Below, piece after piece: positions 21,449-33,187 of a stretch of 34,696 nucleotides of DNA. The DNA is from Chloroflexota bacterium (GTDB lineage: Bacteria > Chloroflexota > Dehalococcoidia > UBA2979). How positions within the stretch are numbered: the stretch's first letter is position 1; each line of letters starts with the position of its first letter. The stretch lies in contig VGPD01000025.1 in assembly GCA_016875635.1 (NCBI GenBank), positions 1 to 34,696 on the forward strand. Direction: 5' to 3'. A program made the translations under genes and the position numbers. The notes under the pieces are model-generated. The model saw only the letters and a program-made list of their open reading frames with translations, had not been told where the DNA came from and made no database searches.

Positions 21449-21582
21449 CGTCCCCTCATTCACCAGATGCCTCGATCCCCCGCGAAACGCGCTCCAACAT
21501 AGCGCCCGACCTCCCACGCCGTCGCCCGGCGGTGGCATGCTGCGTCCCAAACCGACGGGCTCGCAGGCAGGGGAGGCCACCC

Positions 21583-22056
21583 ATGGCAGTGACACTGGAG
21601 GCGGGAGAGCAGGCGCCGGCATTCACCCTAAAGGACCAGGATGGCAGGACCCACCGCCTCGCCGACTACCGAGGCAGGACGGTCGTCCTCTACTTCTACC
21701 CGAAGGACGAAACGCCGGGCTGCATCAATGAGGCATGCTCGTTCCGCGACTACCACGATGAAATCCTGGCAACCGGCGCGGTGGTCCTCGGCGTCTCCAC
21801 GGACGACGCCGTCTCACACCAGAAGTTCGCCGCCCACTACGGGCTACCGTTCCCGCTGCTGGTCGACACCGAGGCGATGGTGGCGACGGCCTACGGCTCC
21901 TGGGGTGACAAGGTGTTGTATGGAAAGCACAGCATCGGCATGACCCGCTCCACGTTCGTCATCGGGCCAGACGGCAGACTGACCAAGGTCTGGAAGCGGG
22001 CGACCGCCGAGGGCCACGGCGAGGAGGTACTCAAACACCTGAGACGCGACTCGTAG
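21583..22056 (+). CDS. bcp: Thioredoxin-dependent peroxiredoxin (BCP/PrxQ type)
   Basis: 157 residues from the ATG at 21583, with GGGGAGG (21570-21576) 6 nt upstream. Reduces hydrogen peroxide and organic peroxides with electrons from thioredoxin. Peroxidatic Cys C47 in TPGCINEACSF with the resolving C52 five residues on, the PrxQ arrangement C-x4-C; other family text is APAFTLKDQDG, VLYFYPKDETPG, GVSTDD and GMTRSTFVI. Its ATG is divergent from the hydrolase operon. A hairpin-like element follows the stop. Confidence 0.94.
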   Translation: MAVTLEAGEQAPAFTLKDQDGRTHRLADYRGRTVVLYFYPKDETPGCINEACSFRDYHDEILATGAVVLGVSTDDAVSHQKFAAHYGLPFPLLVDTEAMVATAYGSWGDKVLYGKHSIGMTRSTFVIGPDGRLTKVWKRATAEGHGEEVLKHLRRDS

Positions 22057-27422: not shown

Positions 27423-28187
27423 TCACCGCTTGCCGGTCGACTCCAGCTCGAAGATCACATCGCCGTTGTCCCACCGCACGACCTCATGCGGTGCGGCCAC
27501 GTTGACCCACGCCGTACGGACCGCGCGGCCGCTGCGGAAGATCAACCGCCAGACCTCGAATGTCCCAGCCGGCACCTGTACCGTCTCGCGCTGCGGGATG
27601 GTGAGGTTCACCACCTGCTGCTCCTGCTCGACAGCATTGGCGGAGACGTAAAAGCGGTTGTATCCCTCCGTGAAGTCCAGCGTGCGCCAGAGCCACAGCG
27701 ACGTTTCGTTGTCGTAGTAGTGCGACCGGAGCGTGATGTCCTTCAAGGACGGTGACTTCCCGTGCTCGACCGCCGTCGTGCGCAACACGTCCTTGCCGCT
27801 GACCTCACCGTACGTCCAGGTGTAGCCGTCCACCGGCGCGACATCGCCGTCCCGCCGTGCGATCTGGCGAGTGCCCCCGAGCGGCCGCAGCGTCTTCGCG
27901 TCCACTTCGACGGAACCGCCGTCCGTGCTGGGGGGGAGTCCGGAGGGCGGCGCGGCCTCTTCGTAGCTCTGGCGCAATGAGAGGTGCCCGTCCTGTTCCG
28001 CGACGACGAGCGTCCCCGTCCCGAGACGCGTCCCTGCCACGTCCCGGAGTGCGTAGACGAGCCGCTCACCTGGAGCGAACGGGATCTGGGTTACGACATC
28101 CTCGGCCTCCCCGCGCGGTGTCGCGCCGTCGCAACCTGCGAGGGCCAACGCCGCGACGAGAAGCGCAAGAGGGAGCAGGCGAGGCAT
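27423..28187 (-). CDS. Lipoprotein, DUF3108-like
   Basis: 254 residues from the ATG at 28187 (longer extensions are open but lack a ribosome site). A lipoprotein signal peptide is clear: MPRLLPLALLVAALALAGC with LAGC lipobox, lipidated Cys at residue 19. The mature part is beta-rich: PFAPGERLVYALRDVAG and GTGTLVVAEQDGH, SVEVDAKTLRPLG, TLDFTEGYNRFYVSANAV, VQVPAGTFEVWRLIF and VAAPHEVVRWDNGDVIFEL. These match the DUF3108-type layout, but the match is by eye. The gene follows the threonine aldolase with a 5-base gap and is probably co-transcribed with it. Function unknown. Confidence 0.75.
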   Translation of the reverse strand: MPRLLPLALLVAALALAGCDGATPRGEAEDVVTQIPFAPGERLVYALRDVAGTRLGTGTLVVAEQDGHLSLRQSYEEAAPPSGLPPSTDGGSVEVDAKTLRPLGGTRQIARRDGDVAPVDGYTWTYGEVSGKDVLRTTAVEHGKSPSLKDITLRSHYYDNETSLWLWRTLDFTEGYNRFYVSANAVEQEQQVVNLTIPQRETVQVPAGTFEVWRLIFRSGRAVRTAWVNVAAPHEVVRWDNGDVIFELESTGKR

Positions 28188-28192
28188 CCGGC

Positions 28193-29230
28193 TCACGCGG
28201 GGGGAAGCCCATCGAGCACCCGCGCGATCAGGGGGATGGCATCCTCGATGTCGGCCGCGCTCACGTCCAGGTGGGTCACCATGCGGATGCGTGACGGGGA
28301 GGTGCCCGAGCACAGCACGCCCTCCGCGGCGAGGCGCTTGCGGAACTCCGGGCCGTCTACCCCGATGAGGTCGAAGAAGACGATGTTAGTGTCGGTCCCC
28401 GCGGGGTCCATCCGGACGTGGGGCATCTCCGCAACCGCCGCCGCGAGGCGCCGGGCGCTGGCGTGGTCGTCGGGCAGCCGTTCGACATGGTGATCGAGCG
28501 CGTAGAGCGCAGCAGCGGCGACCACGCCGGACTGGCGCATCGAGCCACCGACCATTCGGCGGATCAGGCGCGCGCGGTCGATGAACACTCGCGGGCCAAG
28601 GAGGATCGAGCCAATCGGCGCGCCGAGGCCCTTCGAGAAGCAGAACTGCACCGTGTCGGCATCGGCGACAAGCGTGGCAGGCTCGGTCTCCAACGCCGCG
28701 GCTGCATTGAAAATCCGCGCGCCATCGACGTGCACTCGCAGGCCTGCATCATGCGCGGCACGCGTCATGTCCCGCATCTCGGTCGCGGTCAGTGCCGCAC
28801 CACCGCAGCGGTTGTGCGTGTTCTCGATGCACGCGAGGACGGTGCGCGGCCACGGGCGGGCGAGCGCCTTCAGCTCGGCGGGCTCCATGTACCCCCGAAC
28901 ATCGTTCTGCGCGACACGCACGGGGATCCCGCCGAGAGCACTGGACCCCATTCCCTCGTGGTTGCAGATGTGCGACTCCGAGCCAGCGATCGCCTCGTCC
29001 CCACGCTCGACGCAATGCGTCAGCAGCGCGACGAGGTTCCCCATCGTGCCGCTGGGCACGAAGAGCCCCGCCTCCTTGCCGATACGCGCCGCCGAGGCCT
29101 CCTCCAACACGCGCGTCGTGGGGTCATCCCCCATCAGGTCGTCGCCCACCTCGGCACGCGCCATGGCCTCCCGCATCCCGGGGGTCGGGCGCGTCACGGT
29201 GTCAGAGCGCAGGTCGATGACGCGTGGCAT
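28193..29230 (-). CDS. ltaE: Low-specificity L-threonine aldolase
   Basis: PLP enzyme that cleaves L-threonine and L-allo-threonine to glycine and acetaldehyde. 345 residues, the normal length. Start ATG at 29230 with AAGGA about 7 nt upstream. Motifs: IDLRSDTVTRPTPGMREAM at the N-terminus, DPTTRVLE, FVPSGTMGNLVAL, SHICNHEGMG, ENTHNRCGG, HVDGARIFNAA (D169 pairs with the pyridine nitrogen) and FSKGLGAPIGS, where K200 is the Schiff-base Lys. It is followed by the lipoprotein gene with a 5-base gap. Confidence 0.94.
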   Translation of the reverse strand: MPRVIDLRSDTVTRPTPGMREAMARAEVGDDLMGDDPTTRVLEEASAARIGKEAGLFVPSGTMGNLVALLTHCVERGDEAIAGSESHICNHEGMGSSALGGIPVRVAQNDVRGYMEPAELKALARPWPRTVLACIENTHNRCGGAALTATEMRDMTRAAHDAGLRVHVDGARIFNAAAALETEPATLVADADTVQFCFSKGLGAPIGSILLGPRVFIDRARLIRRMVGGSMRQSGVVAAAALYALDHHVERLPDDHASARRLAAAVAEMPHVRMDPAGTDTNIVFFDLIGVDGPEFRKRLAAEGVLCSGTSPSRIRMVTHLDVSAADIEDAIPLIARVLDGLPPA

Positions 29231-29300: not shown

Positions 29301-29744
29301 CTACGCGCGGGGACGCTCCCAGACCGTCTCGTAGCCCTCGCCGCCGCGGATGGCGGCGACGACGTCCGCCCGCTCCAGCCGCTCCGCCTCGCGGAAGACG
29401 CGCCGGGCTCGTTCGACTGCCGTGTCGCCACCCACACGCGCCACACGGGCCTCGATCCGGGTACAGACGCCAAGGTCACGCATGACCTGAAGCGCGCGCG
29501 GCCAGAAGAACACGGTGATCTGTTCCGGAAGCGGGACTTCCGGGCGAACTTTCTGGAGGTAGCGGTAGCGCTCCGCGGCGCCGCTCACCGGCGGGACGAT
29601 CTCGATGAACGGCTGGCCGTCGGCACCCGGCCGGGCGTCCACCAGCAGCCGCTGTTCGATGAGCGAAAAGCGCACGACGAACACCGGCGCTTCATCGATC
29701 ACGCGGAAGATCGCCTCAAGGTCGAGCCCGCGGTCAGCGTCCAT
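29301..29744 (-). CDS. Unknown protein, 147 aa
   Basis: Start ATG at 29744, preceded at 6 nt by TACGAT (29751-29756, minus) and no ribosome site, so probably leaderless. Text such as LEAIFRVIDEAPVFVVRFSLIEQRLLVDARPG and a C-terminal ARRVFREAERLERADVVAAIRG is mixed alpha-beta and soluble, with one Cys near residue 95 and no signal peptide. I recognise no family; it could be conserved within the phylum. The CcdA gene lies 39 bases upstream on the same strand. Confidence 0.6.
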   Translation of the reverse strand: MDADRGLDLEAIFRVIDEAPVFVVRFSLIEQRLLVDARPGADGQPFIEIVPPVSGAAERYRYLQKVRPEVPLPEQITVFFWPRALQVMRDLGVCTRIEARVARVGGDTAVERARRVFREAERLERADVVAAIRGGEGYETVWERPRA

Positions 29745-29783: not shown

Positions 29784-30557
29784 CTAGACGCGAACCTGGA
29801 ACGTCCGGCCGAGATAGGGAAAGTGCAAGAGTTCGCTCATCTGGAGCCCCATCACAACGAGCACGAGCCCGCCGACACGCCCGAGGGTGTCCATGCGATC
29901 CGAGACGAGCGTCCCGCCGAACCCGGCGGACGCCCCCACCGCCGTAAAGACCACCCCGAAACCGAAGACAAACGCGCCCGCGTTCCGGAGGACGTGCGCC
30001 CGGCTCGCCTTCGCGCTGCCGGTCTCCAGTACCGCCTCACCCGCCATATTCACCAGGTAAGCGGGGACCAGCGGCAACACACAGGGCGACAGGAACGAGA
30101 CCACGCCTCCGAAGAAGGCGATGGCCGGCCCCATGCCGCCCGCGACGCTGCTGCTCAGCTCACCCTCCGTCTCCGCCGTGGCGGAGAACAGGAAGCCAGC
30201 GCGTTGAGCTGCGGCATTCAGTCGCTGGAACTCGCCGAAGATCATGAGGAACCCAAGGACGATGAAGATCAGTCCGGCACCCAATGCCAGCCTCGGCAGA
30301 TAGGGACCAAGTCGGCGCAGCCGCGGGGCGATCCAGCCGAAAAATGCCCCGAACGCGAGGAACCAGACGCCGAGGCCCGCTGAATATGCCAGCAGCAGCA
30401 ACGCACCCTGGGCGGCCGTCCCGGAAGCCGCGGCGAGCGTCAGCACGACACCGAGGATCGGTCCAATGCAGGGCGACCACGCGATCGCGAAGGCCGTACC
30501 CAGGACAAAGGACCGGGGGACACCTCGTTCGCGCCAGACACGTGGGATGGATGCCAT
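29784..30557 (-). CDS. ccdA: CcdA/DsbD-TM-type membrane protein with circularly permuted halves
   Basis: 257 residues from the ATG at 30557, one base after the stop of the upstream 65-residue gene (TGA, G, ATG). CcdA moves electrons across the membrane from cytoplasmic thioredoxin to extracytoplasmic thiol proteins in cytochrome c maturation, using two membrane cysteines. In CcdA of known bacteria (for example B. subtilis) the segment SF-SPC-LPL-PA comes first, and GWTPC-GPILGA follows. Here the order is reversed: residues about 17-123 read FVLGTAFAIAWSPCIGPILG (Cys 30), three membrane segments and MIFGEFQRLN, the usual C-terminal part; then an acidic linker (about 125-144); then VSFLSPCVLPLVPAYL (Cys 159) and three more segments ending GLQMSELLHFPYLGRTFQVRV, which normally leads into the GWTPC half. 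Both Cys and Pro residues are intact, so it should still work. A TTG at 30569 is an alternative start. Confidence 0.85.
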   Translation of the reverse strand: MASIPRVWRERGVPRSFVLGTAFAIAWSPCIGPILGVVLTLAAASGTAAQGALLLLAYSAGLGVWFLAFGAFFGWIAPRLRRLGPYLPRLALGAGLIFIVLGFLMIFGEFQRLNAAAQRAGFLFSATAETEGELSSSVAGGMGPAIAFFGGVVSFLSPCVLPLVPAYLVNMAGEAVLETGSAKASRAHVLRNAGAFVFGFGVVFTAVGASAGFGGTLVSDRMDTLGRVGGLVLVVMGLQMSELLHFPYLGRTFQVRV

Positions 30558-30558
30558 C

Positions 30559-30756
30559 TCAGCCGTCAATCCCGAGAAGGCGTCGGCGCGCCTGGTCGTA
30601 CTTCTCTTTGGCGCGCGCCTCCCGGTTCAGCAGGCCCTTGATCTGTTCCGGCGGGAGGCGCTTCCCCTCCAGCAACAGGTCATGCACACCGCTCAGCTGT
30701 TTCTGCCACGCCTCGTACGCCGCGCAGTACGCCTGTTTCTGATCATCGCTCATCAT
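30559..30756 (-). CDS. Small charged protein, 65 aa, upstream of ccdA
   Basis: Starts at one of two adjacent ATG codons (30756 or 30753). TACACT lies 6 nt upstream of the first, without a ribosome site, so it is probably leaderless. Helical and charged, rich in Lys, Arg, Glu and Gln: LLEGKRLPPEQIKGLLNREA and EKYDQARRRLLGIDG. No membrane segment and no known family. The stop is one base from the ccdA ATG, so translation is coupled and the two genes are likely functionally linked or at least co-regulated. Confidence 0.65.
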   Translation of the reverse strand: MMSDDQKQAYCAAYEAWQKQLSGVHDLLLEGKRLPPEQIKGLLNREARAKEKYDQARRRLLGIDG

Positions 30757-31327: not shown

Positions 31328-31404
31328 TGGTGACCCATACCGGATTCGAACCGGTGGTTTCCGCCTTGAGAGGGCGGCGTCCTAGGCCGCTAGACGAATG
31401 GGCC
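31328..31404 (-). tRNA. tRNA-Glu (anticodon CTC)
   Basis: Minus strand. The acceptor stem pairs GGCCCAT with ATGGGTC; the T arm contains GGTTCGAATCC; the anticodon stem is CCGCC/GGCGG around loop CTCTCAA, giving anticodon CTC, which reads GAG. The 3' CCA is encoded (31328-31330). The 5' end is at 31404. The 12-base spacer to the terminator hairpin supports a monocistronic transcript. Confidence 0.95.
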
Positions 31405-33112: not shown

Positions 33113-33187
33113 TGGTGCCCCCAAGGGGAATTGAACCCCTGTCTGCACCTTGAAAGGGTGCCGTCCTAACCTCTAGACGATAGGGGC
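33113..33187 (-). tRNA. tRNA-Glu (anticodon TTC)
   Basis: Minus strand. Acceptor GCCCCTA pairs with TGGGGGC (one G-U). Anticodon stem GCACC/GGTGC around CTTTCAA gives TTC, which reads GAA (and GAG by wobble). T arm has GGGTTCAATTCCC. The encoded CCA is 33113-33115. Together with the CTC species 1.8 kb away this covers both glutamate codons. Confidence 0.95.

Follow-up and report, generated by a model that had tools for sequence, protein, structure and literature searches.

A natural circular permutant of the membrane protein CcdA in a Dehalococcoidia bacterium of the Chloroflexota

The thiol-disulfide electron transporter CcdA, in its normal helix order, is taken to have both termini outside, on the basis of what is established for DsbD with its periplasmic soluble domains. 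CcdA itself consists of six transmembrane (TM) helices arranged as two inverted repeats, and TM1 and TM4 have been proposed to act as an elevator within a scaffold (PMC7329351). The protein described here shares with CcdA (Thermus 5VKV, 2N4X; PF02683) the predicted six TM helices, the two homologous halves, both cysteine motifs, the length and the predicted topology of each half, but its halves come in reverse order, its termini are predicted inside rather than outside, and it has a new acidic linker outside. The TM domain of E. coli DsbD (NF001419) also has homologous cysteine helices; however, it is of normal order and has a soluble domain at each end, an arrangement impossible outside at the termini of the permuted form. 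Permutation of helical membrane proteins is known from the TM domains of type I ABC importers and of the MacB type (PMC6588880), a similar case in that the helix order is altered and the fold kept. There, structural comparison of distant domains revealed the permutation; the two orders of CcdA, in contrast, are found in orthologous slots of a single class. A search of the open-access literature found no description of a permuted CcdA, in keeping with the supposition of an earlier note made from this DNA alone that no natural permutant had been described; subscription papers lay outside the search.

The permuted ccdA, with the helix order TM4-5-6-1-2-3, lies on the minus strand at 29784..30557 (stop included) of the window, the whole stretch of 34,696 nucleotides that was analysed. 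The frame of 257 aa runs uninterrupted from an ATG (30555-30557) to a TAG stop (29784-29786), with an alternative TTG start possible at 30569, and the single intact frame of normal CcdA length described in the earlier note is thus confirmed. The former second half, TM4-6 (30234..30512, minus strand; PF02683 120-211), carries the motif WSPCIGPILG, with the Cys30 codon at 30468-30470. It is followed on the same strand by the new linker between the old C-terminus and the old N-terminus, predicted outside (30132..30233, from the homologue alignment), by the former TM1 with SPCVLPLVPAYL and the Cys159 codon at 30081-30083 (30051..30131, segment profile T1), and by the former TM2-TM3 (29820..29981, segment profile T23). 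Cys30 and Cys159 are the only cysteines in the protein, one per half, and are invariant in 30 homologues as part of a CcdA/DsbD signature that comprises W27, P29, C30, G32 and P33 in one half and P158, C159, L161 and P162 in the other. Directly upstream lies a small conserved gene without Pfam match, SM (30559..30756, minus strand, 65 aa), whose TGA stop ends one base ahead of the ccdA ATG. Directly downstream on the minus strand is another conserved gene without Pfam match, DN (29301..29744, 147 aa), and the conserved slot further includes a threonine aldolase-like gene (PF01212; 28193..29230, minus strand) and, in most genomes of this organism's family, f1, a DUF3108 gene (27423..28313, minus strand). 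Two tRNA-Glu genes are found upstream of the locus (31328-31404 and 33113-33187; anticodons CTC and TTC), and a peroxiredoxin-like Redoxin gene (PF08534), 8 kb away from ccdA, occupies about 21580-22056 of the plus strand.

The family match of the protein is significant (51.1 bits, cut-off 27.1) and falls into two stretches, the match to positions 6-99 of PF02683 (DsbD_TM) lying in the C-terminal half and that to 120-211 in the N-terminal half; the collinear order of TM1-3 then TM4-6 is not met, the order being reversed. Re-ordering the protein in silico gave a single stretch over 6-211 at 61.0 bits, compared with two stretches at 48.3 bits for the unaltered protein, and swapping a normal-order control in silico had the opposite effect, lowering its score from 56.5 to 47.4 bits. 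The case warns that such permuted proteins are split or given too low a score when domain searches and annotation depend on order. In a comparison of the family profile with the solved Thermus CcdA (5VKV), profile positions 145-244 aligned with 5-93 of the chain and 15-120 with 111-212 (E 7.8e-46). Against a normal-order relative (L145), residues 137-257 of the studied protein aligned with 4-120 and residues 12-123 with 148-259, so that its N-terminus falls just past the middle loop of normal relatives, as the earlier note had proposed for the ends. An apparent swap could also result if the two halves, as homologous inverted repeats, each matched the other's profile. The halves are indeed distant repeats, and a weak collinear alignment to L145 exists (28-212 to 24-210, 25% identity, E 2e-7), but the swapped blocks are far better, with identities of 45 and 42% and E values of 4e-29 and 2e-27. 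Segment profiles of TM1, TM2-3 and TM4-6 that had been made from normal-order relatives to call the helix order of loci likewise matched the studied protein in swapped order at 115, 46 and 65 bits, the highest score being that of the TM4-6 profile (T456) on the former second half. A profile artefact was rejected on the ground that the swapped blocks and segment profiles outscore the collinear alignment, and it is very improbable. The alignments to PF02683, 5VKV and normal relatives all give two swapped blocks in one frame, which upholds the central reading of the earlier note: the halves are placed in swapped, not normal, order, and homologues of both orders exist. The protein is thus supported as a natural circular permutant of CcdA, with both orders present in homologues, the old termini newly joined and the orders conserved. 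It is therefore a variant and not a standard PF02683 member, since the order is reversed although each half is homologous to its counterpart in CcdA.

The order of the studied protein, termed P1 (4-5-6-1-2-3; the normal order is 1-2-3-4-5-6 and a second permuted order, P2, is 2-3-4-5-6-1), was found in about 45 genomes from four families of the class, f1, f66, f50 and f31. A P1-type query gave a single match through both halves in 37 f1, six f66, one f50 and one f31 genomes, and segment profiles assigned P1 to every f1 locus read whole and also to loci in f66, f50 and one f31 genome. The homologue sample was limited to Chloroflexota; a contig scan with the studied CcdA as query gave matches from Chloroflexota only, and a plasmid search by tblastn gave no match. 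It remained conceivable, as the earlier note had cautioned, that an assembly or binning artefact had fused two gene copies. The assemblies are drafts of metagenome type and in this genome the locus rests on a single contig, but the junction recurs in dozens of independent assemblies, in homologues 36-82% identical to the studied CcdA, on contigs of up to 434 kb and with the same neighbours. Misassembly was rejected because homologues keep the junction in independent assemblies, and it can be regarded as practically ruled out. A dN/dS of about 0.11 in close-homologue pairs (dN 0.11-0.13, dS 1.1-1.2) also speaks against an artefact and shows purifying selection on the permuted gene. In genome G231, a P1 CcdA and one of normal order are present on separate contigs (L036; L057/L127).

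In f1, SM (65-94 aa) is followed in the slot by ccdA and DN (about 147 aa), in most cases by a threonine aldolase gene as well and frequently by a DUF3108 gene; in two f25 genomes (L145/L195 and L177) a normal-order ccdA occupies the same SM-ccdA-DN-threonine aldolase slot. Since one slot has a permuted ccdA in f1 and a normal ccdA in f25, the comparison shows that ccdA was permuted in place. Both helix orders in one genomic slot are rarely caught for many-helix membrane proteins. SM is followed by a normal ccdA in f16 and by a P1 ccdA in f66, while the f20 slot consists of SM, DN and threonine aldolase without ccdA (L183:4190-4990, L190:4310-5251), with a P2 ccdA elsewhere in those genomes. 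About half of the genomes sampled in the class have DN, frequently alongside genes for threonine aldolase and DUF3108. In f31, P1 is represented by one gene alone, on contig C193 of genome G031; each of its halves shares 53-62% identity with normal relatives (L223, L224), and a TlpA-like thioredoxin gene follows it, the same neighbour that follows the normal-order L224. This gene is a second case of permutation in place. The earlier note had suggested that a tandem duplication came first and that the outer halves were then lost. By this route ccdA would have been duplicated in tandem within its slot, the copies would have fused, with the acidic outside linker arising where the old C-terminus met the old N-terminus, and the fused pair would then have lost its outer halves. 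The old ends fit this route, and the change in place between conserved neighbours favours it, but a search for duplicated intermediates gave neither a tandem nor a 12-TM form among the genomes with several matches, and the route stands as inference only. No outer halves or remnants of them, which could have marked a truncated duplication, adjoin the studied ccdA.

If the chain is opened at the TM3-TM4 loop or at the TM1-TM2 loop and TM6 is joined to TM1, all helix orientations stay unchanged. In 30 P1 proteins, loops predicted inside contain on average 10.7 K+R compared with 2.6 for those outside, a bias seen in 30/30, and the new linker is acidic in the 30 homologues (mean D+E 3.8, K+R 1.2). 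From the charge bias, the acidic linker and the unchanged helix orientation, the termini of permuted CcdA are predicted to shift from outside to inside, with the linker outside. The AlphaFold model of the studied protein is all-helical (pLDDT 78.5, pTM 0.76), the loop charge bias fits an inverted-repeat topology, and the helices may keep the usual packing as two inverted repeats; a model of a P2 protein was moderate (pLDDT 71.3). A Foldseek search with the P1 and P2 models gave no match in the PDB at E <= 0.001, not even to CcdA, in an alignment bound to sequence order and without a normal-order control model, so that the outcome speaks neither for nor against the swapped fold. The permutants make insertion order and terminus location testable as constraints on membrane protein folding, and also the working of the elevator with a rewired chain.

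In the proposed mechanism, the helices bearing Cys30 (old TM4) and Cys159 (old TM1) would shuttle electrons from a cytoplasmic to an extracytoplasmic thioredoxin, the acceptor most likely being the CcmG-like protein of the genome's Ccm operon. On contig C4 of the source genome lies a Ccm cluster, with CcmF and CcmC confirmed by PF01578, a thioredoxin with WCVPC, and CcmE, CcmH, CcmA and CcmB read by eye from translations. The operon is apparently complete, with a CcmG-like thioredoxin and without ccdA (L232, G000:C4:5500-16000). No second PF02683 protein and no CcdA/DsbD beyond the studied protein was found in this genome, a draft of 85 contigs and 90% complete, so another CcdA could be absent from the data; in 19/19 f1 genomes with a match there is one PF02683 protein only. 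Given the Ccm operon and the lack of any other CcdA/DsbD found, the permuted CcdA is most likely the reductant of CcmG, or at least the best candidate, with electron transfer across the membrane inferred from genome context only. The protein could instead have changed its role and be another thiol membrane protein outside a CcdA-type reductant path, and in f1 it has no thioredoxin neighbour (in the source genome ccdA adjoins neither thioredoxin nor ccm genes), while SM and DN are of no known function. Such a change is unlikely, as the DsbD/CcdA signature positions are kept, no other CcdA was found in the genomes that have a Ccm system, a TlpA-like thioredoxin adjoins the f31 P1 gene, and P2 relatives lie near ccmC or tlpA. 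We consider it highly likely that the gene encodes a naturally circularly permuted, functional CcdA; no activity has been shown. The permuted CcdA is a new variant that probably works like CcdA, its function being inferred.

P2 is widespread in Chloroflexota: within this class it occurs in f20 and f5, and elsewhere in the phylum in f90, f107, f108, f137, f140, f146 and f147 (L038-L046, L054, L056, L061, L062, L064, L065, L071, L072, L076-L078, L081, L085, L121, L122, L124, L125). A CcmC-type gene lies within about 2 kb of P2 on the same contig in four genomes (G456, G477, G542, G609), and a TlpA/ResA-like thioredoxin adjoins P2 in L116, L121 and L122. P1 and P2 represent one helix ring, with the TM6-to-TM1 join in common and the cut in a loop predicted cytoplasmic, but P2 is cut between TM1 and TM2 and P1 between TM3 and TM4. 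Relatives about 40-62% identical per half thus differ in helix order, with two distinct cut points. In trees of segments restored to a common order, P1 requires three changes. A single clade for all P1 was rejected (AU p 0.013 in one test, 0.0002 in another), P1 without f31 as one clade was borderline (p 0.086 and 0.030 in the two tests), and P2 as a single clade was not rejected (p 0.153); the alignments are limited, with about 208 columns, and the P1 and P2 groups were named after a first view of the trees. That the normal order is ancestral rests on its occurrence in E. coli DsbD, Thermus CcdA and most sampled Chloroflexota, as well as on general knowledge. Unless normal order was regained, the trees suggest two or perhaps three origins of P1 and one or more of P2. 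Neither the several origins nor the second permutation could be seen from the DNA behind the earlier note. Repeated permutation in two ways is a rare natural test of membrane protein tolerance to rewiring. Three or more independent permutations of a polytopic transporter are probable (two or three for P1, one or more for P2), occurring in place in conserved neighbourhoods and always at loops predicted cytoplasmic, so selection may favour inside termini and a closed outside linker. In the P2 proteins of L061:1504-2562 and L064:868-2004, a hydrophobic insertion of about 100 residues separates TM3 from TM4.
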